A DNA stretch of 32,906 bases from a virus, in IMG/VR virus record IMGVR_UViG_3300031673_000294, positions 1 through 32,906 of that record; one strand, written 5' to 3'. Positions 3,431-26,945 of this stretch are shown here, piece after piece. Position 1 is the first letter of the stretch; every line of letters starts with the position of its first letter. The notes under the pieces were generated by a model, which was not told where the DNA came from, did not search any database, and was given only the letters and a program-made list of their open reading frames with translations. The translations under genes and the position numbers were made by a program.

Positions 3431-3670
3431 TCATTTTCCCCCTTTAGCCACCTTAATCCCTTTGATTATTAGTTCATCTTTATTCACGGCCAAATATGGA
3501 TATTTACCCTGTACCAAAATAAGCGGCCTTTCTTTGGTCTGCATGTGTGCAACAATCTGTTGCAGAGACCTAATCTCCTGGGCCTGCCTATAATCAAAAA
3601 GGCAAAACCATGTCAGGAGCACAATAATTGCCAGGCCCATGAAGTATATTACGGTGTCTTTGTTCATCAT
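3431..3670 (-). CDS. Single-pass membrane protein, 79 aa
   Basis: A 79-residue protein with one clear N-terminal transmembrane helix (VIYFMGLAIIVLLTWFCLF, about residues 7-25), then a helical segment (QAQEIRSLQQIVAHMQ) and a short C-terminal beta region. The topology resembles small phage inner-membrane proteins with a cytoplasmic or periplasmic coiled segment, but I do not recognise the family. The ribosome site is weak. It ends 3 nt before the next start. Role unknown. Confidence 0.6.
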   Translation of the reverse strand: MMNKDTVIYFMGLAIIVLLTWFCLFDYRQAQEIRSLQQIVAHMQTKERPLILVQGKYPYLAVNKDELIIKGIKVAKGGK

Positions 3671-3686
3671 AATCTTTAACTAACCC

Positions 3687-3713
3687 TTAGCGCCTTTGCG
3701 CCTTTGCGTGAGG
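3687..3713. repeat. Dispersed genomic repeat (CGCCTTTGCG type)
   Basis: The tract contains tandem CGCCTTTGCG units followed by TGAGG. Sequences of this type (GCGCAAAGGCGCAAAG on the other strand) are scattered between genes in many environmental bacterial genomes, so its presence here suggests acquisition from a host chromosome. It lies between the 78-aa and 79-aa genes. An 18-codon frame on the minus strand (3676-3732, starting in an ATGA overlap) runs through it but is not called as a gene. Confidence 0.5.
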
Positions 3714-3728
3714 CTGCCTTTTCTTTAT

Positions 3729-3965
3729 TCATCCCAACCCCGCCCTCTCAATAATCCAACTGGGGATTGCCGCTTCCATGACGGGTTCGCCGTTTTCTTG
3801 ATATTTATCCAACCTCAATAAATATTTTGGAACCCACAGATCCTTTTCCCCGTTATCGGTTTTCAATAATAGATATATCCCCTCTTTAGTCTCCCTAATT
3901 ATTTCTATAACCCTGAAAAAGTCCCTGGGTTCATATAGGTTGCATGGGGGTTTGCCTTTTTTCAT
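3729..3965 (-). CDS. Hypothetical early protein, 78 aa; start abuts an integron core site
   Basis: A 78-residue protein (begins MKKGKPPCNLYEPRDFFRVI) with alternating strands (IYLLLKTDNGEKDLWVPKYLL) and no recognised family. Its ATG lies only 8 nt after the GTTAGGC core site that closes the upstream attC, with only a poor ribosome site between. That spacing is typical of the first gene of an integron cassette, so this gene may once have been a cassette too. No attC follows it, however, so this is conjecture. Coding probability is moderate. Confidence 0.55.
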   Translation of the reverse strand: MKKGKPPCNLYEPRDFFRVIEIIRETKEGIYLLLKTDNGEKDLWVPKYLLRLDKYQENGEPVMEAAIPSWIIERAGLG

Positions 3966-3973
3966 TTTTTAGT

Positions 3974-4030
3974 GCCTAACGTAGAAGTCAGGCGCCAGCG
4001 TAGCTGGTCGGCTGCACTGACTGGTTAGCT
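3974..4030 (-). other. attC: Integron attC recombination site
   Basis: Read on the minus strand, the 57 bp divide exactly into R'' AGCTAAC, a 5-nt spacer CAGTC, L'' AGTGCAG, a 20-nt terminal region with a CCAGC-TAC-GCTGG hairpin, L' CTGACT, a 5-nt spacer TCTAC, and R' GTTAGGC. L'' and L' pair with a single unpaired G, the extra-helical base that guides integron integrases. R' fits the consensus GTTRRRY. Length, equal spacers and the unpaired base are all canonical. R'' is the complement of the cassette's own 5' core GTTAGCT rather than of R', as expected when the last six bases of R' belong to the neighbour. Confidence 0.88.
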
Positions 4031-4226
4031 GAATTCTAAAATATCATCAAAGTCAGGATGTAATAACGTGCCAGTTTCCCTACCTTTAAAAGCAATTATT
4101 TTTGGGAAAGGAAAGTCCTTAAAAAAACAGAAATTACTAAAAACAGGATCAAACCATTCATCTGTTAATTTAATTTGTCCACTATCCCATTCTTCAACTG
4201 TAATCATTTTATTTCCTTTCAGCTAA
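3980..4226 (-). mobile_element. Integron gene cassette, 247 bp
   Basis: Boundaries follow from the integron cut between G and TT of the core: the cassette starts TTAGCTGAAAGG at 4226 and ends ..TCTACG at 3980. Circularising it creates GTTAGCT, the perfect complement of its R'' box. It holds one frame of 60 codons, whose start lies 19 nt inside the left edge and whose stop lies in R'', the standard compact cassette design. It is co-directional with the phage early operon and so probably expressed from the phage promoter. No integron integrase or attI is visible. It was presumably inserted by a host or superintegron enzyme at a G|TT target. Confidence 0.85.
4025..4207 (-). CDS. Cassette-encoded protein, 60 aa, unknown
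   Basis: The only gene of the integron cassette. It begins MITVEEWDSGQIKLTDEWFD, is acidic and aromatic-rich (FSNFCFFKDFPFP), and ends DFDDILEFS. A clear ribosome site (GAAAGGAAA) precedes the ATG. The TAA stop lies inside the attC R'' box. I do not recognise a domain. There is no signal peptide or transmembrane helix. Most known environmental cassette genes are likewise of unknown function; many characterised ones act in defence, toxin-antitoxin or metabolic modulation, but nothing here supports one of these. Confidence 0.7.
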   Translation of the reverse strand: MITVEEWDSGQIKLTDEWFDPVFSNFCFFKDFPFPKIIAFKGRETGTLLHPDFDDILEFS

Positions 4227-4276
4227 CCATTAAATGTTATGAGTTTATTCAATGATATCAGCTAAGCGGGCGTCCT

Positions 4277-4414
4277 TTATAGCCCCTGAATCTCTTTATC
4301 AACCCCGGAAAACAAATCATAAATCACATATACAACGGCAATGAATGCTCCGGTAACAAGTACCGGTCCAAACCAAAACCAGTTCTTATTGATAAGCATA
4401 ATTACTGTTTCCAT
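4277..4414 (-). CDS. Small single-pass membrane protein, 45 aa
   Basis: A 45-residue frame beginning METVIMLINKNWFWFGPVLV with one hydrophobic helix (about residues 12-33, FWFGPVLVTGAFIAVVYVIY) and a charged tail (DLFSGVDKEIQGL). GGGAGA lies 5-8 nt upstream of the ATG. It overlaps the end of the upstream regulator gene by 29 bp. The size and topology fit small phage membrane peptides such as host-modifying or superinfection proteins; a specific role cannot be given. It is the last gene before the integron cassette. Confidence 0.6.
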   Translation of the reverse strand: METVIMLINKNWFWFGPVLVTGAFIAVVYVIYDLFSGVDKEIQGL

Positions 4415-4871
4415 AATCTTCTCCCTTTATGGTTTCCCAAATTCGCAATTTTAGGTCTTTTGGTATTCTGCTTTCAGGGCATACTCCCCTCTCAACATTC
4501 GACAGGTAGCTGGAGTTTGTCCCGACAAGGTGGGCAAATTTTATTTGAGTAATATTCTTCTGCTTTCTAAAAAATTTAATAGCGTTCATAAGGCGGGACT
4601 TATCTTGATATACTTCACGCTCACCATTGACAAACCGCCTGACCTTCTCAGGATTGAGGTTAAATAACTCACAAACCCATAAGAAGGACGCTGGTGTGTT
4701 TCTTTCGCTCTCAAACCATTCAAGGGCATTCTTGATGGTTATTTCATCGCTTCTGCTACACCTCGGTGTCCTCGTAGCATCCTGAACCGCCTGCCAAAGG
4801 ACCATGAGCCAGAGAAATCTATCAGGGCAATGGGGTTTATATCCTGTTATCTGTACCGGGAAGTGCTTCAT
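4386..4871 (-). CDS. XRE-family DNA-binding protein with an extra N-terminal domain
   Basis: A 161-residue protein. Residues 25-85 (RFLWLMVLWQAVQDATRTPR, then LEWFESERNTPASFLWVCEL, then FNLNPEKVRR) match a domain common in phage early proteins of unknown role. Residues 95-140 form a Cro/CI-type helix-turn-helix (FFRKQKNITQIKFAHLVGTN, then SSYLSNVERG). It starts 1 nt after the upstream stop, suggesting coupled translation. It probably regulates transcription in the lytic programme. The partner operators are not identified. Confidence 0.7.
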   Translation of the reverse strand: MKHFPVQITGYKPHCPDRFLWLMVLWQAVQDATRTPRCSRSDEITIKNALEWFESERNTPASFLWVCELFNLNPEKVRRFVNGEREVYQDKSRLMNAIKFFRKQKNITQIKFAHLVGTNSSYLSNVERGVCPESRIPKDLKLRIWETIKGEDYGNSNYAYQ

Positions 4872-4872
4872 T

Positions 4873-5076
4873 TTAAAAAATTGTCCTCTTACACAACCCC
4901 TCTTTTAATTTATGGCAATAATAACAAAGCTCGTCTTTAGTAGCTGCCTGATTGCATCGGCCTCGAAGCGTGCCGCCTTTGCATTGAGGTAAGCCAAGCT
5001 TTAAAAAAACAGGCTCATTTATCCATTTAGTAAGGCGCTTATTATTAAGGGTCCCGGTGAGTTTATTTTTTGTCAT
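4873..5076 (-). CDS. Small Cys-rich protein, possible zinc ribbon, 67 aa
   Basis: A 67-residue basic protein with cysteines at about 32, 41, 51, 54 and 62, including CYYC and CHKLKEGLC-like spacing, consistent with a small zinc-binding fold. It begins MTKNKLTGTLNNKRLTKWIN. The ATG overlaps the end of the tiny basic gene upstream by 14 bp, so the two are coupled. No named family. It may bind nucleic acid by analogy with other basic zinc-ribbon phage proteins, which is inference only. Confidence 0.6.
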   Translation of the reverse strand: MTKNKLTGTLNNKRLTKWINEPVFLKLGLPQCKGGTLRGRCNQAATKDELCYYCHKLKEGLCKRTIF

Positions 5077-5170
5077 TCTTCTTGACCTTTTTATCCGCCG
5101 TACGTCTGGAGGACGCCTCTTTAATCTTTTCCCGCCGTGTCTTTTTCCGCCGGCCCTTACGTCTGCCCAT
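5063..5170 (-). CDS. Extremely basic 35-aa protein
   Basis: The frame starts MGRRKGRRKKTRREKIKEAS and ends TADKKVKKNDKK; 19 of 35 residues are Lys or Arg. The ATG directly follows the TAG of the CII-like gene, and AAGGTGG lies about 8 nt upstream; the stop lies inside the next gene. The arrangement strongly suggests real translation. Such composition fits a nucleic-acid or acidic-protein binder, with residues 1-18 resembling an arginine-rich RNA-binding motif. Antiterminator-like action is a speculation without further support. Confidence 0.55.
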   Translation of the reverse strand: MGRRKGRRKKTRREKIKEASSRRTADKKVKKNDKK

Positions 5171-5638
5171 CTAATACTCCACCTTTTGATTTATAAACTG
5201 CTCAAGGTATGCCTGTAATTCAACACAGGCCTTTATCAGGTCCCTGTTTTCCTTCAGGCACTTCTTAGCCTCATTGGTTGTTACAACCCCATCCTCCATG
5301 GCAGCCGCTATCTCCTTAATGTTCTCACCAAACTCCTTGGCTATTTTGGAAACATAATGCATAACCGGCTGCATGTTCTTACGCTCTGCCCCTGGAAGCT
5401 CAAAGGCAACGCGATTAAAGAACTCCTCAATCGTGTCTAAGGGTCGTGTGTCGTGGGACTTCTTCAAGATCAGGATCGCATCAAGAAGGCCAAGCTTAAA
5501 GCCATGCTGTTGTGTGAGTTCGTTTCTTAGGGTTGATTCGCCCTTGCCAAGTTCAAAGGCCATGGCCTTGAGCGGGTAGGATTTTGCGGCAATGTCAATA
5601 AGGTCGATCAGGTCGTAAAGCTTTTCCAGCTTAGTCAT
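5171..5638 (-). CDS. Phage regulatory protein, CII family
   Basis: From ATG 5638 the product has 155 residues. The N-terminal half (SYPLKAMAFELGKGESTLRN, then ELTQQHGFKLGLLDAILILK) contains a helix-turn-helix of the phage CII / CP76-like family, regulators of the lysis-lysogeny choice. The second half (about 80-155) is helical and probably mediates oligomerisation. The ATG at 5638 is chosen over upstream in-frame starts because GGAGGAG lies just before it. It is the third annotated gene leftward from the switch, the position CII-type regulators take in lambdoid genomes. Confidence 0.75.
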   Translation of the reverse strand: MTKLEKLYDLIDLIDIAAKSYPLKAMAFELGKGESTLRNELTQQHGFKLGLLDAILILKKSHDTRPLDTIEEFFNRVAFELPGAERKNMQPVMHYVSKIAKEFGENIKEIAAAMEDGVVTTNEAKKCLKENRDLIKACVELQAYLEQFINQKVEY

Positions 5639-5671
5639 AAGCTCCTCCATGAGCAATAAAGTTTGAAACCA

Positions 5672-5878
5672 TCATTTCTTCTTTGTCTTCTTTGAATTAC
5701 CATTCTTCTTAAACTCAAGGCCCCAATCAGACCAGTCTGTCCTGATTGAACTGGCCTTGGTGGGCACCAGGGCCTCAAGCCTTGCTTCTAAGGTGTTCAG
5801 ATCCCCGTTAATCTGCTGCCGGATACGGTAGATGCTCTGTTTTAATAGGCTGACTTCTTGAAGTTCACTCTGTCTCAT
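5672..5878 (-). CDS. Small coiled-coil early protein, 68 aa
   Basis: A 68-residue protein with an N-terminal helix likely to form a coiled coil (LQEVSLLKQSIYRIRQQING, then DLNTLEARLEALV) and a lysine-rich C-terminus (FKKNGNSKKTKKK). No ribosome site is obvious, but its ATG overlaps the stop of a 24-codon frame as TAATG, implying reinitiation. It lies between the Cro-like and CII-like genes. Function unknown. Confidence 0.55.
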   Translation of the reverse strand: MRQSELQEVSLLKQSIYRIRQQINGDLNTLEARLEALVPTKASSIRTDWSDWGLEFKKNGNSKKTKKK

Positions 5879-5952
5879 TAGTTAAGACTCACGAACCACC
5901 AGAAAAGGATGGTATCTGAAACACGGTAATTAAAATATGTATAAGCAGGCAT
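5878..5952 (-). CDS. Possible 24-aa leader peptide
   Basis: The frame MPAYTYFNYRVSDTILFWWF (then VSLN) begins 5 nt after the Cro-like stop and ends in a TAATG overlap with the next gene. It is hydrophobic and aromatic. There is no ribosome site of its own, so it would depend on coupling from the Cro-like gene. The tight junctions at both ends are the only support. Confidence 0.3.
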   Translation of the reverse strand: MPAYTYFNYRVSDTILFWWFVSLN

Positions 5953-5957
5953 GGCTA

Positions 5958-6263
5958 TTACTCTGGAAAAAGCTCTTTAACTTTGAGGCCCAGGCTCTTT
6001 GAAACAAGCTTCATGGCCGTTTTGCTGCGTCTAACACCCGTTATAGCGTGAGAGATGCTTTGCCAGGATATCCCTCCGTTTGATTTTGCAAGTTTTGACA
6101 TTTCAATGTCATTCAGTTGCAAAAGAGACCTGCGGATTAATGGCAAAGAAAAACCGAGGGATTGAAGCATCTCAAAGGCCGCTCGGTTTCTATTTTTATG
6201 GATTTTTAGTTGTATTATCTGAGACAATTTGTTACTTGATAGTCTTGAAAATAAATTCATCAT
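5958..6263 (-). CDS. Cro-like DNA-binding protein
   Basis: A product of about 101 residues. The C-terminal 55 residues (LNDIEMSKLAKSNGGISWQS, then ISHAITGVRRSKTAMKLVSK, then LGLKVKELFPE) form a lambda-repressor-like helix-turn-helix, close in pattern to phage regulators whose last residues read LGL..EELFPE. It is the first gene of the leftward early operon and is divergent from the CI-like repressor, exactly the place of Cro. Starts at 6263 or 6260 both fit AGGA in the leader. It probably binds the CAATATATTG palindromes next to its start. Confidence 0.75.
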   Translation of the reverse strand: MMNLFSRLSSNKLSQIIQLKIHKNRNRAAFEMLQSLGFSLPLIRRSLLQLNDIEMSKLAKSNGGISWQSISHAITGVRRSKTAMKLVSKSLGLKVKELFPE

Positions 6264-6275
6264 CAATCCTATTTA

Positions 6276-7542: not shown

Positions 7543-8589
7543 ATGGCAGTAACTCAACTTAAAGATGGGCGGTGGATTTGTTATTACCGGGTGCCTTGTG
7601 GGGATCCACGCAAGAGCCGTATCAAAAAAGAATATTTCGGTCGGGGTCCAGAGGCCGAGAAAGCGGCCCGAAAACGTCATGATGAATTGGGCCTAAAAAA
7701 AAGACGCCCTGCCCGCGGTTCACGTGGTCCAAAATTTTCAGCATTGGCCTATTCATACGCTGATAACAAAAACTTCTCCCGAAACTCAAAAGACCTTTTA
7801 TCCACCCGCCTAAGAAGTAGCATCCTTCCTCATCTTGGAAACTTTTCAGGCATCCAGATCAAGTTTCAGGACCTTGATAATTATGTCAAAAAAAGACGGC
7901 GGGACCGTGTCAAGGATTCAACCATCTCAAGGGAATTGACAGACATCAAAGCGATCCTTAACTGGAGCGTTGCAAGACAACTGCTTGAATTCAACCCTGT
8001 CCGGGATTACAAAAAACCCGCGGAAAACAACGCCCTTATAATCCCGCCCAACACCGAAGAAATATCAAAGATATTGAAACATGCCAGCCCGCACCTTGTC
8101 AGGGCAATAATGCTTTCCTATTACCTTGGCCTTCGGCCCGGGGCCGTTGAACTTCTGCGGATCACATGGTCGGAAATTTTGTGGGAATCACAGTCCATCT
8201 TGATCAAATCAGCAGACAAAGGCGGCCCAAAAAACCGCCTCGTACCAATCCATGATGATTTCCTTCCCATATTGACAAAATGGCACGCTGAGGACAAGAA
8301 GAGAGGATATCTAATACACTTCCATGGCCAACCCATTAAAAGCATCAAAAAGGCATGGAGAGGAGCTTTGAGGAGGGCAAAAATTAAGAGGCGCTTACGA
8401 CCCTATGACCTGAGACATTGGTTTATCACAAAGGCCCTTGAGGAAGGGGCGGACCTTAAGGCACTTTCTGAGATCGTGGGGTCCCGCCCGGAAACCATCA
8501 TGAAACATTATCAGCATGTCACATCAGAGGTCCACCGCAAAACCGTAGCTAAGATCCCTGGGCTCCCACCTATTTTTGAAAAGAAATAA
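7543..8589 (+). CDS. int: Phage integrase (tyrosine recombinase), attP-linked
   Basis: A 348-residue integrase: arm-type DNA-binding N-terminal domain (1-60, VTQLKDGRWICYYRVPCGDP), core-binding domain (65-160), catalytic domain with R198 (LGLRPGAVELL), K226, R291 (YDLRHWF) and nucleophile Y323 (MKHYQHV). Two positions deviate: Y288 replaces the first His of HxxR, and S314 replaces the His of LGH; both substitutions occur in active phage integrases. It ends 351 bp before the tRNA-Val fragment at 8940 and so most likely recombines that site. Convergent with the late operon. The ribosome site is weak. Confidence 0.9.
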   Translation: MAVTQLKDGRWICYYRVPCGDPRKSRIKKEYFGRGPEAEKAARKRHDELGLKKRRPARGSRGPKFSALAYSYADNKNFSRNSKDLLSTRLRSSILPHLGNFSGIQIKFQDLDNYVKKRRRDRVKDSTISRELTDIKAILNWSVARQLLEFNPVRDYKKPAENNALIIPPNTEEISKILKHASPHLVRAIMLSYYLGLRPGAVELLRITWSEILWESQSILIKSADKGGPKNRLVPIHDDFLPILTKWHAEDKKRGYLIHFHGQPIKSIKKAWRGALRRAKIKRRLRPYDLRHWFITKALEEGADLKALSEIVGSRPETIMKHYQHVTSEVHRKTVAKIPGLPPIFEKK

Positions 8590-8653
8590 AAATGCTTTAA
8601 TTTTTACCTATAGTTTGGTATCTATATTTATTAGCCAAACAAAAGGGGGAAAA

Positions 8654-8836
8654 ATGATGTGGGTTAATATCACTAAGATTGAGCAACATGGCCGGTATGA
8701 AGTCCAAATGAACACAGAAACCAGCAAAATTCGTTACCGAGAAATTTATGGTACCGCCCAAGGTGAATGGAGACAAGGCGACCCGCCGGAGGTTAACAAG
8801 GGTATGAACGCAGACGCCAAAACTACCGGCATCTGA
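8654..8836 (+). CDS. Small protein near attP, 60 aa, unknown
   Basis: From ATG 8654 (GGGGGA upstream) the product begins MMWVNITKIEQHGRYEVQMN and has 60 residues with a beta-rich first half. It is small, downstream of the integrase and just before the P arm, where recombination directionality factors often lie. It lacks a recognisable helix-turn-helix, so an excisionase role is only a possibility. A longer in-frame start at 8576 overlaps the integrase and has no ribosome site. Confidence 0.45.
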   Translation: MMWVNITKIEQHGRYEVQMNTETSKIRYREIYGTAQGEWRQGDPPEVNKGMNADAKTTGI

Positions 8837-8899
8837 ACGAAAATAGGTGCGGGCGCTGGAAAATCAAATATGCTGAAAATATCCCCAAAAAAAGCAAAA

Positions 8900-8920
8900 A
8901 GCCGATTCAAAGAATCGGCT
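8900..8920 (-). terminator. Rho-independent terminator (leftward)
   Basis: A perfect 9-bp stem AGCCGATTC / GAATCGGCT with a 3-nt loop. On the minus strand it is followed by TTTTTGCTTTTTTT. It ends leftward transcripts, that is the phage late operon, and after integration would lie just past the restored tRNA-Val gene, as a tRNA terminator would. Confidence 0.85.
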
Positions 8921-8939
8921 CTAAGTGATTGATTTTACT

Positions 8940-8984
8940 TGGTAGGCACGATGGGATTTGAACCCATGACCCCTACCGTGTCAG
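8940..8984 (-). other. attP core: 3' fragment of tRNA-Val(GAC)
   Basis: Read leftward: anticodon loop CTGACAC (anticodon GAC), stem GGTAG, variable loop, T arm ATGGG-TTCAAAT-CCCAT, acceptor strand CGTGCCT, A and encoded CCA. The matching 5' half is absent: the bases right of 8984 do not form the CTACC anticodon strand or any D arm. This is therefore a fragment rather than a tRNA gene, the usual identity segment carried by a phage that integrates into a tRNA gene and restores its 3' end. Confidence 0.85.
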
Positions 8985-9138
8985 GGGCAAGTGCTGGGTT
9001 TAGAGCCCCATAAAACCTGATTATTTTTTGCGAATTTTGGGGATATTTCGATGTATGTCCAATATATATCCCCAGGGGTCAATTTTGCATTAAAACAGGT
9101 TATATTTCATAGTCGGGTTTGTCAAGGATTCGTTGAGT

Positions 9139-9654
9139 TTATTTTAAAATGCCATCATATATGACAGAGTATGCCTTCCATCTTATCCATTCATCGGCGA
9201 GGGTGTCCGGGTTGGTCGATGCCCACCATCTATGTCTTGCTACTATCTTCCATAAATAATAGGCTACTACCTCAGAGCACACGCCACGGCCCAGGAAATG
9301 AAGTTTTGCCAATGGCGGGAACAGGTGAAGAAATAGCCTGTAGATAGGATATCCCTCGCCCTCGAACTCCCTCCGTAATGCTTCGATAGCCTTTTCATGC
9401 AGTTCAGGGGTTAGGTTATCATACCTTGCGATTATGATTCGTTGTCCTGTATATGCTTCGAATAGGTTCTGTGTCGAAAGGGTTCCTTTGCCTATTGCCT
9501 CAAGGGTGGTTCCTTCAGGGTCAAGGATCAGACCTGCATGACTATAAATTGAGGCATGATCTTTTGACCAGAACTTTTGAAGGGCATTGATTAGCCTGCT
9601 GATAATTCCCTTCCCCTGGACAGCAAAGAAGTCTCCTGCTTTTAGGTCAATCAT
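9139..9654 (-). CDS. NlpC/P60-like (YiiX-type) cysteine hydrolase
   Basis: A 171-residue protein with the permuted papain-like order: H39 in YSHAGLIL, an acidic E52 in LEAIGKG, and C126 in RGVCSEVVAYYL. YiiX/NlpC-P60-type enzymes hydrolyse peptide or amide bonds in murein or related substrates. It is the last gene of the late operon and overlaps the lipoprotein gene by ATGA. With an M15 endolysin upstream, it may be a second cell-wall enzyme or an amidase acting on lipid-linked or murein peptides. No signal peptide. Fold call fairly sure, substrate unknown. Confidence 0.75.
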   Translation of the reverse strand: MIDLKAGDFFAVQGKGIISRLINALQKFWSKDHASIYSHAGLILDPEGTTLEAIGKGTLSTQNLFEAYTGQRIIIARYDNLTPELHEKAIEALRREFEGEGYPIYRLFLHLFPPLAKLHFLGRGVCSEVVAYYLWKIVARHRWWASTNPDTLADEWIRWKAYSVIYDGILK

Positions 9655-9881
9655 TTCTGTCTATTCCTCAATTTTTCCTGAAGGCGTCCCAAATCCTGAA
9701 CAAACCCGTCAAACTCAGGGTCTTTGTCTGCGGTTTCAATCAGTACGCTAATATTGTGCTCGCTGATGTTTAATGGAGGGGGGCAATTACTTGCCCTTCC
9801 CCCGCAGGCGGTCAATAAGAGTAGGCCTGTCAACATCGCCAGCAGCATCAATCTCTTGATCTTTTTTAAGGGTTTCAACAT
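9651..9881 (-). CDS. Outer-membrane spanin-like lipoprotein (Rz1-like)
   Basis: From ATG 9881 the product has 76 residues: MLKPLKKIKRLMLLAMLTGL then LLLTACGG, a lipoprotein signal with Cys in TACGG. The mature part starts with a proline-rich CPPPLN segment, typical of Rz1-type o-spanins, followed by helical sequence. It overlaps the 69-aa gene by 95 bp in another frame, the known nested Rz/Rz1 arrangement. Together these would bridge inner and outer membrane in the last lysis step of a Gram-negative host. A longer TTG start is possible. Confidence 0.7.
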   Translation of the reverse strand: MLKPLKKIKRLMLLAMLTGLLLLTACGGRASNCPPPLNISEHNISVLIETADKDPEFDGFVQDLGRLQEKLRNRQK

Positions 9882-9996
9882 CGGCCTCTGCGCTCTTCCT
9901 TTTTTCAAGTTCCTTGCCGAGGGTTATATAGACAAGCCTGTCCATGATTTTTATGAGCAGGCTTGCTATTGTACTCCCTATTGTCGTCCAGGTCAT
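9787..9996 (-). CDS. Possible inner-membrane spanin subunit (Rz-like), 69 aa
   Basis: A 69-residue protein with a hydrophobic N-terminal helix (TTIGSTIASLLIKIMDRLVY) then a charged helical segment (GKELEKRKSAEADVETLKKD) ending DRPTLIDRLRGKGK. Short phage proteins with this end pattern sit beside holins and behave as i-spanin candidates, but the membrane segment holds Lys and Asp and is imperfect. Its ATG overlaps the holin stop (ATGA) and its 3' part overlaps the lipoprotein gene out of frame. Confidence 0.55.
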   Translation of the reverse strand: MTWTTIGSTIASLLIKIMDRLVYITLGKELEKRKSAEADVETLKKDQEIDAAGDVDRPTLIDRLRGKGK

Positions 9997-10175
9997 TTTT
10001 TCGCATCCTCTTTTTTATCAGGAAAGAATGCTCCAATAAGGCCCGCAATCGCCAAACCTGCGGGGGCAATCGCTGCAAGTTGATCAGGGTTAAGCCCGCA
10101 TCCAATGGATGTTAGGATTAATGTGATCCCTGTCCACGTGCTGTTTTCTTTAAAACGATTAAATAGGTATTTCAT
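9993..10175 (-). CDS. Holin-like protein, 60 aa, two transmembrane segments
   Basis: A 60-residue protein: basic N-terminus (MKYLFNRFKENSTW), first hydrophobic helix (TGITLILTSIGCGLNP), second (LAAIAPAGLAIAGLIGAFFP), charged C-terminus (DKKEDAKK). This is the class II holin pattern, forming inner-membrane holes that release the endolysin. GGAGAATGG lies a few nt upstream. Its genes on both sides are lysis proteins. Alternative membrane roles in the same block are possible. Confidence 0.75.
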   Translation of the reverse strand: MKYLFNRFKENSTWTGITLILTSIGCGLNPDQLAAIAPAGLAIAGLIGAFFPDKKEDAKK

Positions 10176-22050: not shown

Positions 22051-22389
22051 TTAAAGTTGCCTTCTTTCGGAACGTGTCAGGCGCAAGCGCCATATTCCCG
22101 TTGCCTTTGGGCCTGCCAGGTTTTCTATTAAATACCAGGTCTCTCCATCGATCGTGAACGTATCGCCCTGGGCGTTTGGGCTTGCGACCTCGCTCTCCTG
22201 AACTTCTATTATCATCTCGTCTGCCGCCGGTTGCGGGTCCTGTAACGACTCGTCGCTTGCATTAATGATGATTTTTACGGTCTCCCCAAGGATTGATCCT
22301 AAAGGTATATAAGTGACGCTTTTTGCAAACTCATCCGTATTGAAAAAGATGCTATCAAGATCGCTTTCCATTTGGGTTTTCAGGGTCAT
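22051..22389 (-). CDS. Head-tail attachment protein (lambda FII-like), 112 aa
   Basis: A 112-residue protein (MTLKTQMESDLDSIFFNTDE; TYIPLGSILGETVKIIINAS) with ending TWYLIENLAGPKATGIWRLR LTR, the hallmark of phage head-tail joining proteins of the FII/attachment family, which form the hexameric connection to the tail. ATGA overlap with the 95-aa gene upstream. Confidence 0.72.
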   Translation of the reverse strand: MTLKTQMESDLDSIFFNTDEFAKSVTYIPLGSILGETVKIIINASDESLQDPQPAADEMIIEVQESEVASPNAQGDTFTIDGETWYLIENLAGPKATGIWRLRLTRSERRQL

Positions 22390-22673
22390 CTGTCCACCAT
22401 CACAATATCGATAGATCGATTTTCCTTTCTGGTCTGATTAGTAATTATCTCATTGACAATACGATAGGTCTCCCCGACAGTTCCGCCGGATAGCCATATC
22501 GTTGTCGTGGTGTCAGTTTTGCTATCGCTGTCCTTTGTTAATCCTGTGGGGACTGTCCATTCGCTTGTGCTTATGGTCTCCCCGTCTTCGAGCCAAGGAC
22601 TCCCTTCTTTCTTCCAGTTAAACCCATAATCCAAGACCGCATCAGGATCTTTTGGGATTTCCTTTATTGCCAC
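22386..22673 (-). CDS. Phage fibre-tail-adaptor-like protein, 95 aa
   Basis: A 95-residue protein with KDPDAVLDYGFNWK, GETISTSEWTVPTGL, TTTTIWLSGGTVGETYRIVN and RKENRSIDIVMVD, the well-conserved blocks of a small Ig-like phage family often annotated Gp77-like adaptor. Members lie in head-tail junction clusters and may decorate the connector or head. Family recognition fair, role tentative. Confidence 0.7.
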   Translation of the reverse strand: MAIKEIPKDPDAVLDYGFNWKKEGSPWLEDGETISTSEWTVPTGLTKDSDSKTDTTTTIWLSGGTVGETYRIVNEIITNQTRKENRSIDIVMVDR

Positions 22674-22685
22674 TTTATCCTCTTA

Positions 22686-23252
22686 TCAGCTCGAAGTTGC
22701 GCTACAAGTTACGGTGACTTCCAATGTGTCATTATCATCCAGTACTTTATCGCCTGCACTGAAAGCGCCTCCGCCATAGAGCACTCCAGCCGAGCCGCCT
22801 TTTGTGTTTTCTGTACAGATAAAGGCCCCGCCAATCGTTGTACTGTTAGCGCTGATCGTAAAGGTCGCCTCGTTTCCAACATTATCAATGGCCTTAGCTG
22901 CAGCGGCATTCCACACAAGGGTAATCCTGTTTGCCTCATCATAGGCGGTCACTTCTGTCCAGCCGGCATGAGTTGTCATATCATCGCCTACAGCAAACGA
23001 CGGTGTCGTTCCAGTCAGGCCTAAATAATGGAGGGCCGTATAGGCAGCGCCCTTGAAAAACTCTTGCAATTCAAGGGTCAAACCTTCGTCGACAACTAAG
23101 TTCTCAATGACATCTTCCCATTTGAGGTTGCCATGCTTGTCAAAGCATCGGAATTTATAAACGTTCTTGAACTTCTTCTGTAGCTCAATGACCTTTGCCT
23201 TTGCCTTTGCTCCGGCCCCAAAATTTACGCCCATTTCTCTTTCGAAATCCAT
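22686..23252 (-). CDS. Phage structural protein, 188 aa
   Basis: An N-terminal segment (FRCFDKHGNLKWEDVIENLV, then VDEGLTLELQEFF) is a motif found in many phage proteins from head or head-tail clusters, followed by a beta-rich C-terminal domain (HYLGLTGTTPSFAVGDDMTT; FICTENTKGGSAGVLYGGGA). Probably a virion component. The ribosome site AAGGAGGG is strong. The exact function of this group is unclear to me. Confidence 0.6.
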   Translation of the reverse strand: MDFEREMGVNFGAGAKAKAKVIELQKKFKNVYKFRCFDKHGNLKWEDVIENLVVDEGLTLELQEFFKGAAYTALHYLGLTGTTPSFAVGDDMTTHAGWTEVTAYDEANRITLVWNAAAAKAIDNVGNEATFTISANSTTIGGAFICTENTKGGSAGVLYGGGAFSAGDKVLDDNDTLEVTVTCSATSS

Positions 23253-23262
23253 TTTACCCTCC

Positions 23263-25041
23263 TTACCATCCGGACTTATTTGCGTTTATAATTCGATCTT
23301 CATGACCTACAGCGATCACCCGTTCTTCCCTACCCACATCAACTACCCGGCTTTCATGGTCTACGGTGATTATCCTTACCTCCCCTGATACGACCATCTC
23401 CCTTAGCTCATGTTCAACTGTGACTAACCTGCTCTCTGGGACAGAAATTACAAAAGTAGTTTCACCCTGCAGGACCAATAATGTATCTTTCGTGATATCA
23501 AAATCTGCCTTTGCGGCTGCCTTTCCCGCAATGCTCAGGGCCGAATCAAACTGCAAGTCAACATCAACCCTATGTTTGGCCTGGCCTTCAATGTCTGCTG
23601 AAAGCCCCTTGTTAAGCTGAATCGCCGCAGAGGCTATCTGCTTGGCAACATTGTCTATGGTCATGTTTTTGGTTACTGCGATGCTGACCTGAGTAACCCC
23701 TGCGAGCTTCTGGCTGGTGAGCGTAATAGTGAAATTGCCCGTTGTGCTGATTGCTGCAGATGCCTGAGCAAGGGCCTGAAGAACAGTTGCTATATCGTGG
23801 GTCAGGCCTAAAGCTGCATTGGCCTGGGCCTTGCCGATCAGTGAAGCAATATGATTCTTGGAAATAGACAGGTCGCTTGCGGCAAGGGCCTTGCCGATGA
23901 GTGAGGCCAGTTGATTCTTTGTAATACCCACATCTCCTAAGGAGGATGCCTTGCCTGTTTCTTCAATGGTTTGATCTTTGTTTATGCTTATGTTGGCCAG
24001 TGCCGCTGCCTTGCCTGCCACAGACGCAACAAGGCTTTTGGTGATAGCCAATGCAGATATTATGATATTTTTGGCGGCCTGAATTATTATATGGTTTTTG
24101 GATATGGATATGTCGGCTGAAGCGGCCGCCTTCCCAACAGCGGCAACAGCCTGATCTTTTATTGTAGTTAGAGGGGCCTTGGCCGCTGCCTTGCCTACAA
24201 AGGCAGAGGAATGATCGGAGACCACAGATACACTGCCCGAAATAATTGCCTTCCTTACAAAAGAAGCAATGTAATTTTTGGCCAAGTCAAGGTTGGCCTT
24301 TGTGGCTGCCAGGCCGCCAAAGGAGGCTGTTTGATCTTTTGTGATTGAAACAGAGGACTTTGTAGTTGCCTTTCCAACCAGAGATAGGCCCTGGTTTTTG
24401 GTCATGCCAAGACCAGATGCCCCGGAGGCCTTGCCTGCCATAGAGGCAACCTTGTTTTTATTGATAGATAAGGCCCCGCCTGAAGATGCCTTGCCACTGA
24501 ATGTGACGGCCTTATCCTTGTTCGTGGATATGTCTACTCCTATAATTGCTCCGGCCGATAAGGTCGTGATTGTCGTCTGGAGTATTGCAGAGCCTGAAAA
24601 ATCAATAACTACAAGTTGCAACTCGTACTCTTGCCCATCTAATGCCCCTGAACCAAAGCCCAATGCCCACTGAATCTCACCATAAGTGCCGTTGCCGATA
24701 TTCAATAAATAAGCTAAATTATCGCCTTCGTTTTCTACACTGCCATTATCTATAGGAGATAGACAACCTGCTGTGTTAGCTCCTAAAGCTAAAGCATCGG
24801 TTAATACTGTTCCTATTCCCCAACGAATCTCAGTATCAGCGCCGACATCGACAAAAGTTCCGCCAGCCCTGCGCCATTGAAGTTTACAGTCAGAATCGGG
24901 ATTGGTAGAATTCGATAAAACCCATGTGGCTAAGATAAATTCATTGGCTTTATTCCAATCCACAATATCGGCATTGCAGGCCGCCTGCCAAACCCTACTG
25001 GCATCAGCTATTCTGGAATCTGTTTGAGCAAAAAGACCCAT
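23263..25041 (-). CDS. Capsid-adjacent repeat protein (possible head fibre), 592 aa
   Basis: Three parts. Residues 1-169 form a beta-rich domain (ACNADIVDWNKANEFILATW; SDCKLQWRRAGGTFVDVGAD). Residues 170-531 hold about eighteen repeats of 20 residues, consensus xLSITKNQxASLxGKAxAxA; the first thirteen are in exact register. Residues 536-589 are six 9-residue repeats ExRxIxVxH. It directly follows the major capsid gene, so a head-attached fibre or decoration is likely. The 20-residue period could form one turn of a beta-solenoid. The terminal ExR-type repeat is seen at the end of other phage head proteins. Confidence 0.7.
   Translation of the reverse strand: MGLFAQTDSRIADASRVWQAACNADIVDWNKANEFILATWVLSNSTNPDSDCKLQWRRAGGTFVDVGADTEIRWGIGTVLTDALALGANTAGCLSPIDNGSVENEGDNLAYLLNIGNGTYGEIQWALGFGSGALDGQEYELQLVVIDFSGSAILQTTITTLSAGAIIGVDISTNKDKAVTFSGKASSGGALSINKNKVASMAGKASGASGLGMTKNQGLSLVGKATTKSSVSITKDQTASFGGLAATKANLDLAKNYIASFVRKAIISGSVSVVSDHSSAFVGKAAAKAPLTTIKDQAVAAVGKAAASADISISKNHIIIQAAKNIIISALAITKSLVASVAGKAAALANISINKDQTIEETGKASSLGDVGITKNQLASLIGKALAASDLSISKNHIASLIGKAQANAALGLTHDIATVLQALAQASAAISTTGNFTITLTSQKLAGVTQVSIAVTKNMTIDNVAKQIASAAIQLNKGLSADIEGQAKHRVDVDLQFDSALSIAGKAAAKADFDITKDTLLVLQGETTFVISVPESRLVTVEHELREMVVSGEVRIITVDHESRVVDVGREERVIAVGHEDRIINANKSGW
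23275..23436 (-). repeat. Six 27-bp coding repeats (9-aa ExRxIxVxH)
   Basis: Units ESRLVTVEH, ELREMVVSG, EVRIITVDH, ESRVVDVGR, EERVIAVGH and EDRIINANK follow each other without gaps at the C-terminus of the 592-residue protein (residues 536-589). Confidence 0.85.
23449..24534 (-). repeat. 60-bp coding repeat array (20-aa units)
   Basis: About eighteen units of 60 bp encode 20-residue repeats. Units at residues 190-209, 210-229, 370-389 and 390-409 are the best examples (ALSINKNKVASMAGKASGAS; DLSISKNHIASLIGKAQANA). Register holds exactly from 170 to about 430 and then shifts by a few residues. DNA copies are diverged, so this is an old array maintained for structure. Confidence 0.85.
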
Positions 25042-25114: not shown

Positions 25115-26074
25115 TTAGCTGAAGGTTGAATAACTGGCCATTTGCCAGTAACCATAACCCACGTTACGCATAGCCTTGATGCCGTAATGGTGCACGTCAT
25201 CGTTGAACTCAAGCTCGCTGCCTTCGGCAATGGCACTCATTTTGATGGGTTCCTCTTCCTGGCGAATAAGGGCCTTGACATCGCTGTCGGTCCTGAAAAC
25301 CATCATGTTGGTTGTGAGTGCTGAAAATCTCGGGTTGAATTCGGCTCTAAGCTTGAAACCATCAAGCGTTCCAAGGACATTGGTGAATGCTGCGCCTGCG
25401 CCATCGGTTATTACCTGTGAGCCAAGGGCTGCCATAAGGGGTGCCCAAAGCTGAGGGGTGCCGACCATGATCAGGAATTCCCTTGCGTCTTCATTAAGAG
25501 GCTCACCCTGATCATCTTTATAGGCCATCATATAACCGATTACTCCAAGGACAGCTTCAACCATTTCGGCTGCTGTCGGTGCCGTGGTTGTCGTAACATC
25601 GAGCTTTGGCACCTGGGTCGCGGTTAACAGGTTTAATAATGTCCCTGAATCGCCTTCGCTATGGTCGGAGTCAAAGAAATACTGGCCGTCATAGCAAACA
25701 CCTGAAGTTCCATTGATTAACAAGGTGCTTAACAAAGATGCCCAGTGCGCCAGCGCTCTCCTGGCCTGCTCTCCCACCCTGAGCATGATCTGGCCGGTCT
25801 TATCACGCCTGAGATCATCTACCTGGATCTCAAGAGTAGATTCGTATTTCTTATTGAAAATGGTGATTCCATTCTCACGGAATCCCTTGGCCTGCCTACC
25901 GCCGACCCATTCCCGCATCTGCGGAACCATGCCGAGCCATTTATAGGTCTCTGATTCCTGGTTTGAGTCAAAAAGCATTGAAATCTGGTTAATCCAGCTC
26001 ATGCCAGTTAGTTGACTGAGACGGTGATAAAACTCACCGATTATCGCCCTGCTTCCTAATCCTGCTGCTCCCAT
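25115..26074 (-). CDS. Major capsid protein, Mu gpT-like, 319 aa
   Basis: A 319-residue protein with the blocks of Mu gpT-type major head subunits: YKWLGMVPQMREWVGGRQAK, GITIFNKKYESTLEIQVDDL, ARRALAHWASLLSTLLINGT, DGQYFFDSDHSEGDSGT and FLIMVGTPQLWAPLMAALGS. HK97-fold shell protein. AGGAGGTACAAC before the ATG fits high expression. Flanked by decoration protein upstream and hairpins on both sides. Confidence 0.9.
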   Translation of the reverse strand: MGAAGLGSRAIIGEFYHRLSQLTGMSWINQISMLFDSNQESETYKWLGMVPQMREWVGGRQAKGFRENGITIFNKKYESTLEIQVDDLRRDKTGQIMLRVGEQARRALAHWASLLSTLLINGTSGVCYDGQYFFDSDHSEGDSGTLLNLLTATQVPKLDVTTTTAPTAAEMVEAVLGVIGYMMAYKDDQGEPLNEDAREFLIMVGTPQLWAPLMAALGSQVITDGAGAAFTNVLGTLDGFKLRAEFNPRFSALTTNMMVFRTDSDVKALIRQEEEPIKMSAIAEGSELEFNDDVHHYGIKAMRNVGYGYWQMASYSTFS

Positions 26075-26183: not shown

Positions 26184-26945
26184 TTATTCTTTTGCCCAGG
26201 TTCCAACTATACGAGTTGCAACCCAGCCGTTTGCATCGCCATATTCCAGGTCAATATAATCGCCCCGGCGAGCGGTTGCCTTGGTGTTTATGATATCCTT
26301 ATCATCAACACCGGCCACATCGACCGATTCGATCATATCGGCTGCATTGGGTGATACGGTAACTATGACAGTTCCAAATGCCCCTCCATTCACAATTCTT
26401 ATCCCGGCCATGCCTTCTACTGCCGGCAAGGTGATTGCCTTGGCATCAACCGTCATAAACAGGACTTTCCCTGAATCCTGAGCATCCAGGGTCAAATTGT
26501 CCGCCACTGTTTGCGCAAACAGGCCTTCATGAGGATCTCGCAGGACATCAACGTCAAATTCCACGATCGCCACACCTGCCGAGACATACCGGCGCATGAA
26601 ACCGATAAACACGCCGCTCGTTTTCAGGAATGAAAACGCATTGTCGTCCTGGGCATAAACGGGCTGCCCGACATCTGTAATTACAGCGCCGGTCACAGAA
26701 AGCTGGATTGCGCCCTTTTTGACGGTACGCACGTTTATTGCGGCGGCGGCGCCCAAGGAATTATCGGCCTTTGCCTCTGCAAAACCGACAAACCTGTCTA
26801 CCGAGGTCAATGGCCTGGCGTGCCCTGAAGCATCCACAAGCCCAACCGCACCCCCTTCAAAGATTATATCCGCAGCTATCACCGGATATTCGTTACGATC
26901 TCCAAGCTCAAGTGCCCTTGGTGTATCTAATGCTAAAGTAGTCAT
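26184..26945 (-). CDS. Capsid decoration / cement protein (DUF2190-like), 253 aa
   Basis: The first 135 residues (IAADIIFEGGAVGLVDASGH; RFVGFAEAKADNSLGAAAAI; VRTVKKGAIQLSVTGAVITD; GQPVYAQDDNAFSF) follow the pattern of DUF2190-type capsid cement proteins. Residues 140-253 are an extra beta domain (LTLDAQDSGKVLFMTVDAKA; GIRIVNGGAFGTVIVTV), similar to appended head-decoration domains. It lies just before the capsid gene. ATGA overlap with the upstream gene; strong GGAGG. Confidence 0.78.
   Translation of the reverse strand: MTTLALDTPRALELGDRNEYPVIAADIIFEGGAVGLVDASGHARPLTSVDRFVGFAEAKADNSLGAAAAINVRTVKKGAIQLSVTGAVITDVGQPVYAQDDNAFSFLKTSGVFIGFMRRYVSAGVAIVEFDVDVLRDPHEGLFAQTVADNLTLDAQDSGKVLFMTVDAKAITLPAVEGMAGIRIVNGGAFGTVIVTVSPNAADMIESVDVAGVDDKDIINTKATARRGDYIDLEYGDANGWVATRIVGTWAKE

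Follow-up and report, generated by a model that had tools for sequence, protein, structure and literature searches.

A three-gene module of the siphophage LSH1 (GenBank PX020959), gp34-gp36, has been found among the virion proteins identified by mass spectrometry (PMC13243795, 2026). There, gp34 carries its lyase-like payload at the N-terminus and could not be modelled with AlphaFold 3 in its C-terminal portion, gp35 matches the GP4 fibril protein 8JOU, and gp36 adopts an Ig fold. As a working model, the authors place gp36 on the virion, the gp35 fibril on gp36 and gp34 at the end of this chain, with the payload on its N-terminal domain; they also wonder about a repetitive motif, and no 20-residue repeat is reported. 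Two further systems bear on the locus analyzed here. The podophage GP4 supplies gp77 (PDB 8jou), which is in the same Pfam family, PF23148, as an adaptor described below. In a KPP25-type Pseudomonas phage, a relative of the protein that we call p188 has been solved as a structural protein (PDB 26la/44nx, E 3.4e-11); at the KPP25 locus (L186, 8965-9934), 44nx contains the p188-type protein together with the 147-aa protein encoded beside it, and the two may therefore assemble with each other.

We analyzed a 32,906-nucleotide stretch of phage DNA from an environmental sample (hereafter, the window), in which an open reading frame at 23263..25041 on the minus strand encodes a 592-aa protein, P0001, that has no family match. 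P0001 is a fibre-like repeat protein of an uncharacterised class, and the repeats themselves are real. Residues 168-427, the shaft (23761..24540, minus strand), consist of thirteen units in exact 20-residue register with the consensus xLSITKNxxASLxGKAxAxA. Periodicity and a family profile place about five degenerate units in residues 428-526 (23464..23760, minus strand), where the register slips near residue 450 and traces of the repeat run on to about residue 526. Self-similarity of residues 161-545 gave z values of 14.6, 11.6 and 10.4 at lags of 20, 40 and 60, respectively, while none of 500 shuffles exceeded 4.7 at any of 60 lags, and the family profile detected 14 units spaced by 20 residues, followed by steps of 23 and 40. 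These results confirmed the original prediction of about eighteen units, the first thirteen of them in register. Our reading of the evidence as a whole is that P0001 is probably a side fibre held by its C-terminal end, and that it is encoded in a three-gene cassette that moves between unrelated tailed phages.

The capsid gene and the three genes that follow P0001 lie, like it, on the minus strand. The gene that precedes P0001 encodes a gpT-type major capsid protein (25115..26074; PF10124, E 4.6e-41; phrog_371), and the earlier claim that the repeat gene adjoins the capsid gene was therefore correct. P0001 is followed by the gene for p188, a 188-aa partner protein (22686..23252; phrog_8123, E 7.3e-25), whose start codon lies 10 bases after the P0001 stop, with a GGAGG motif in the gap. 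The third gene of the cassette encodes a 95-aa fibre-tail adaptor (22386..22673) that matches the family of GP4 gp77 at E 1.9e-26, with 92.9 bits against a cut-off of 27, and PDB 8jou at E 0.0043. Neither the capsid gene nor the first gene past the adaptor, which encodes a head-tail attachment protein (22051..22389; PF05354, E 6.2e-10), is part of the cassette. A 253-aa gene before the capsid gene (26184-26945) matches the virion protein phrog_1731 in its first half and is unmatched in its second, and L080 and L083 each have a gene of this size in front of their capsid gene.

Searches for direct relatives of P0001 returned no families from Pfam or PHROGs up to E 1 and no match in the PDB, and tblastn with whole P0001 or the head alone gave no match among 50,697 phage records. 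Scans of viral contigs with P0001, an alignment of its head and a DNA pattern of its repeat found only the same virus (L002/L004, plus L156 by the repeat DNA pattern) and one other contig, L003. A search of 44 records with a profile of the repeat, which had been proposed as a check, detected nothing beyond the same virus except for one stray match (E 0.01); the family was recovered by way of the p188 loci. Thus, the statement that the repeat belongs to no named family held for Pfam, PHROGs, the PDB and named phages. The description of the repeat as new-looking needs qualification: we found no published name for it in the literature, which does not prove that it is unpublished, but it has a wide family in environmental phages, and PMC13243795 reported a comparable virion module in 2026.

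Several candidate relatives were rejected. ORFs of L016 and L037 gave weak BLAST matches to the P0001 repeat with filters off and were judged to be composition matches. The 21-residue repeats of three capsid relatives, L083, L063 and L080, were likewise set aside; hhalign, applied to the L083 repeat alone, found no relation with the P0001 repeat, and the 21-residue repeats are not classed together with it. The 541-aa protein of L083 (9002-10627) has the same layout as P0001, in that 21-residue repeats of the SVTEADDTLAATG type (phrog_38872) lie between a head and an arginine repeat at the C-terminal end, with no relation detectable by profile. The capsid relative L031 encodes a 600-aa protein with 19-residue repeats of the NSGSIFGC type (4469-6268), separated from the capsid gene by three short ORFs, which is another candidate for a repeat appendage.

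The search with p188 yielded 38 viral loci and two genome loci. We surveyed the gene just upstream of p188 for periodicity at lags of 10-50, using locally shuffled controls, in 40 loci. These comprised all 38 viral ones plus those of Vibrio phage L182 and genome L225, but not genome locus L226, which has the same fibre gene as L204. The best lag was 20 or 40-42, with z>4.4, in 25 of the 40, a count that includes a gene read in the wrong frame (L196), the window's own virus (L187) and near-duplicates (L192/L193, L204/L205 and L212/L214/L215/L216). At a common threshold of z>6, 19 of the 40 genes upstream of p188 were periodic vs. 9 of 251 other ORFs, and most of these nine themselves had a period of 20 or 40 and were close to a p188 that has no periodic upstream gene. 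Fifteen loci lacked such a repeat gene before p188, with another gene (often of 140 aa) in that position in twelve and a short or missing gene in three, and we count these loci against the cassette reading. In L208, a single p188 is flanked by two different period-20 genes (3523-5661 and 7667-10057), the unit motifs of which differ.

When 20-column profiles of 27 other proteins were compared with that of P0001 in any rotation, using column permutations as the null, P was <=0.01 in 12 proteins and <=0.0005 in five; L206 and L190 missed the 0.01 level, and the family profile later picked up both. In a leave-one-out analysis, a ten-protein profile scored P0001 at 9.04 per unit over five units, compared with a maximum of 3.48 in 300 permutations and 3.28 for the reversed sequence, and L188, L190 and L191, which were outside the training set, scored 13.2, 11.1 and 8.6, respectively. 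Registers for the family profile had been picked by similarity to P0001, and a control that did not depend on this choice was therefore added. A profile built from L192, L194 and L206 only, and registered by their own conserved arginine, picked the same phase in P0001 (-3.0, next -11.3), a result that was reached by none of 2000 permuted profiles. A weak 20-column motif, roughly S-L-[ST]-L-[AS]-[RKQ]-x-x-G-[IL]-[ST]-x-[SA]-G-[QK]-A-x-A-x-A, is thus common to twelve distinct proteins including P0001, in the same register, and their unit sequences differ widely. Proteins with other repeat motifs next to p188, from L218, L219, L197, L208, L222 and Vibrio phage L182, had the period in common with these but, at the score applied, lacked the motif. 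Altogether, these sequence comparisons place the P0001 repeat in a family that is wide among environmental phages.

An AlphaFold-type prediction of the monomer, originally proposed as a check, was regular for part of the repeat. The AlphaFold2 model of residues 170-309, built with 16 further family segments (17 aligned rows), showed three short strands per 20-residue unit, with pLDDT 60 and pTM 0.50; the five models had pLDDT values of 60.0, 54.8, 48.9, 38.2 and 35.7. The full-length model, for which one head relative was the only one used, had a pLDDT of 33.8 and helices drawn in the repeat, and was discarded as unusable. Foldseek found no match to the shaft model at E 0.001 or better. As a second look, VIA-align superimposed it on bactofilin (6rib) with 1.7 A over 100 residues (Z 13.2) and on tapirin (6n2b) with 2.3 A over 136 residues (Z 13.9), Z values of a size that is common for repeats, with a model of modest confidence; the top row, 2wle_C (Z 14.5), was set aside with an rmsd of 11.4. 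Bactofilin and tapirin are beta-helix proteins; both are cellular, and their identity to the model sequence is 7-9%. The model suggests that the shaft is likely a beta-solenoid with one turn per 20 residues, as the original prediction had it, now with three strands assigned to each unit at what is only moderate confidence.

Many phage fibres are trimers. The LSH1 report states this also (PMC13243795), and the modest confidence of the shaft model and the way in which small and polar residues alternate over columns 14-20 and 1-5 would likewise suit an intertwined trimeric fibre of the triple beta-helix or beta-spiral type, in which case the solenoid of the monomer would be a repeat artefact. However, a single-chain solenoid accords with the three strands that the model gives each unit and with a 20-residue period that is strict and rarely slips, and gp35, a relative of the adaptor, is reported to be predicted as a dimer and not a trimer (PMC13243795); we consider the trimer unlikely. 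A flexible, largely disordered tether, with a periodicity that arose from recent duplication and not from a fold, appears quite improbable. It would account for the low pLDDT that AlphaFold2 gave without relatives and for the very low confidence of the C-terminal part of LSH1 gp34 (PMC13243795), but column preferences are shared in register among proteins with unalike repeats, for which duplication alone is insufficient, and the shaft model became regular once the 17 rows were used.

The solenoid shaft that we favour lies between two ends that differ in their conservation. The last 60 residues of P0001, 533-592 (23266..23445, minus strand), form a second, shorter repeat unlike the 20-residue unit, with arginines spaced about 9 residues apart, which the original prediction did not mention. 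This arginine comb is the putative anchor. A C-terminal profile made from 11 other fibres, with P0001 left out, was searched against 11,107 ORF stretches of 232 loci and found P0001 at E 5.8e-5, and its matches at E <=1 were confined to genes of P0001's fibre class. The comb is present in 12 of the 13 motif-sharing fibres, the exception being L194, which is not beside p188 in the usual order; outside of these fibres, one unrelated arginine-rich ORF also fits the comb pattern. Actinophage proteins that look alike by eye gave no match to the arginine-comb profile at E <=1. Among these, gp24 of Mycobacterium phage Rumpelstiltskin (L230, 5748-8036) and gp4 and gp5 of Rhodococcus phage Shagrat (L231, 1448-4468) end in arginine combs near a gp77-type gene (gene 22 in Rumpelstiltskin) and have no 20-residue shaft.

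The N-terminal head, residues 1-163 (24553..25041, minus strand), is a separate region whose sole detected relative, in L003, is 63% identical and belongs to a protein that also has (TSSS)n stretches and a domain of the LamG type. The L003 gene (540-4373) has a long (TSSS)n part and a reading frame that apparently shifts near its end, and no neighbouring capsid gene was seen. The earlier proposal of a beta domain before the repeat thus held with respect to a distinct region, for which the beta fold is putative. Heads of the cassette fibres were mostly unrelated, with similarity detectable in 4 of 45 pairs vs. 78 of 78 pairs for p188. LamG-type heads were found in three of the four relatives tested (L188, L203 and L204), with no match for L206, and three motif fibres are nearly headless (16-34 residues), which we count against our reading. 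By these comparisons, the head is the variable end of P0001's fibre class.

The order of fibre, p188 and gp77-type ORF was observed in 11 of the 12 distinct motif cassettes, with L192 as the exception. Overall, a gp77-type ORF follows p188 in 16 of 41 p188 loci, some of which have little downstream DNA, and a Pfam check of six relatives found PF23148 in four (L188, L195, L198 and L204) but not in L197 or L212. The window's own cassette has the PF23148 adaptor, phrog_8123 in between, the motif register and the C-terminal comb. Among cultured phages, Vibrio phage VS-ABTNL-3 carries the module (PVS_14, PVS_15). On balance, we favour the view that P0001, p188 and the gp77-type adaptor travel as a unit between otherwise unrelated phages.

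Does this unit attach to the capsid or to the tail? The cassette is independent of capsid type: none of the 27 cassette records encodes the window's gpT-type capsid protein (positive controls, 6 of 6), and of 41 records from the capsid lineage, the p188 profile matches no more than 3 (controls, 2 of 2). In 80 loci with relatives of the capsid gene, mostly other genes occupy the place of P0001. The original prediction had deduced a capsid-attached fibre from gene position, and position alone does speak for a head fibre that binds the capsid lattice, given that the P0001 gene directly follows the gpT-type capsid gene and that the triad of L204 likewise comes after genes for a head maturation protease and for a 432-aa protein that takes the place of the capsid gene. 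However, in L195 and L198 the cassette is near a pectate lyase or glycosyltransferase gene, and capsid attachment is less likely because the cassette occurs without this capsid gene and because Pfam gives the family of its adaptor the name of a fibre-tail adaptor. We therefore do not retain the capsid-attached assignment; a head fibre is unlikely, and from the gene content of these records the neck, connector or tail would be a likelier site for P0001 than the capsid.

Our preferred reading is that P0001 would be the fibre, or adhesin, of a three-gene virion appendage that is mobile as a cassette. The N-terminal head would be exposed and exchangeable, being in relatives a LamG/concanavalin-type lectin domain or another fold, and may bind a surface glycan or protein. 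The 20-residue units would stack, each as one beta-solenoid turn, to form a shaft whose length could vary through gain or loss of units, while the C-terminal arginine comb would dock on p188 and the gp77-type adaptor, which in turn would bind the connector or tail. Classic tail fibres attach by their N-terminus. If the comb docks as proposed, the polarity of P0001 would therefore be opposite to theirs, and the cassette would exemplify side fibres that are held by their C-terminal end. Many 'hypothetical' genes beside phrog_8123 would then be recognisable as host-recognition fibres despite little sequence similarity, by three marks: a 20-residue period, the arginine comb at the C-terminal end and the pair of partner genes. 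The fit of gene position to a head fibre, the weak models and the Foldseek result are also counted against this reading.

KPP25 differs from the window in that its p188-type gene is beside a head-closure gene and no 20-residue repeat fibre was seen beside p188, which we likewise count against the cassette. The Alishewanella phage Slicko01 is named in PMC13243795 as having a protein related to that of LSH1, and we infer that WGH49683 (1843 aa) is the protein meant. WGH49683 has a period of 40 (z 19.1) with visible 20-residue units. PF23148 was not found among the five neighbours of WGH49683 that were scanned; the 121-aa gene next but one after it matched phrog_240 (E 1.7e-9) and, weakly and below the cut-off, the GP4 fibre I family (0.0036). 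By its description, the Alishewanella phage LSH1 module resembles the window's cassette in its three linked virion genes, its gp77-like protein and a large protein with an N-terminal payload and a poorly modelled C-terminal end, and differs in its lyase-like beta-helix head and its position after the lysis genes. We hold it to be possible, at a little under even chances, that a horizontally moving, length-adjustable cassette of reversed polarity occurs across unrelated capsids of siphophages and other tailed phages and that it also explains the unmodelled domain of LSH1; if true, this would offer a testable reason for the failed modelling of the LSH1 module.
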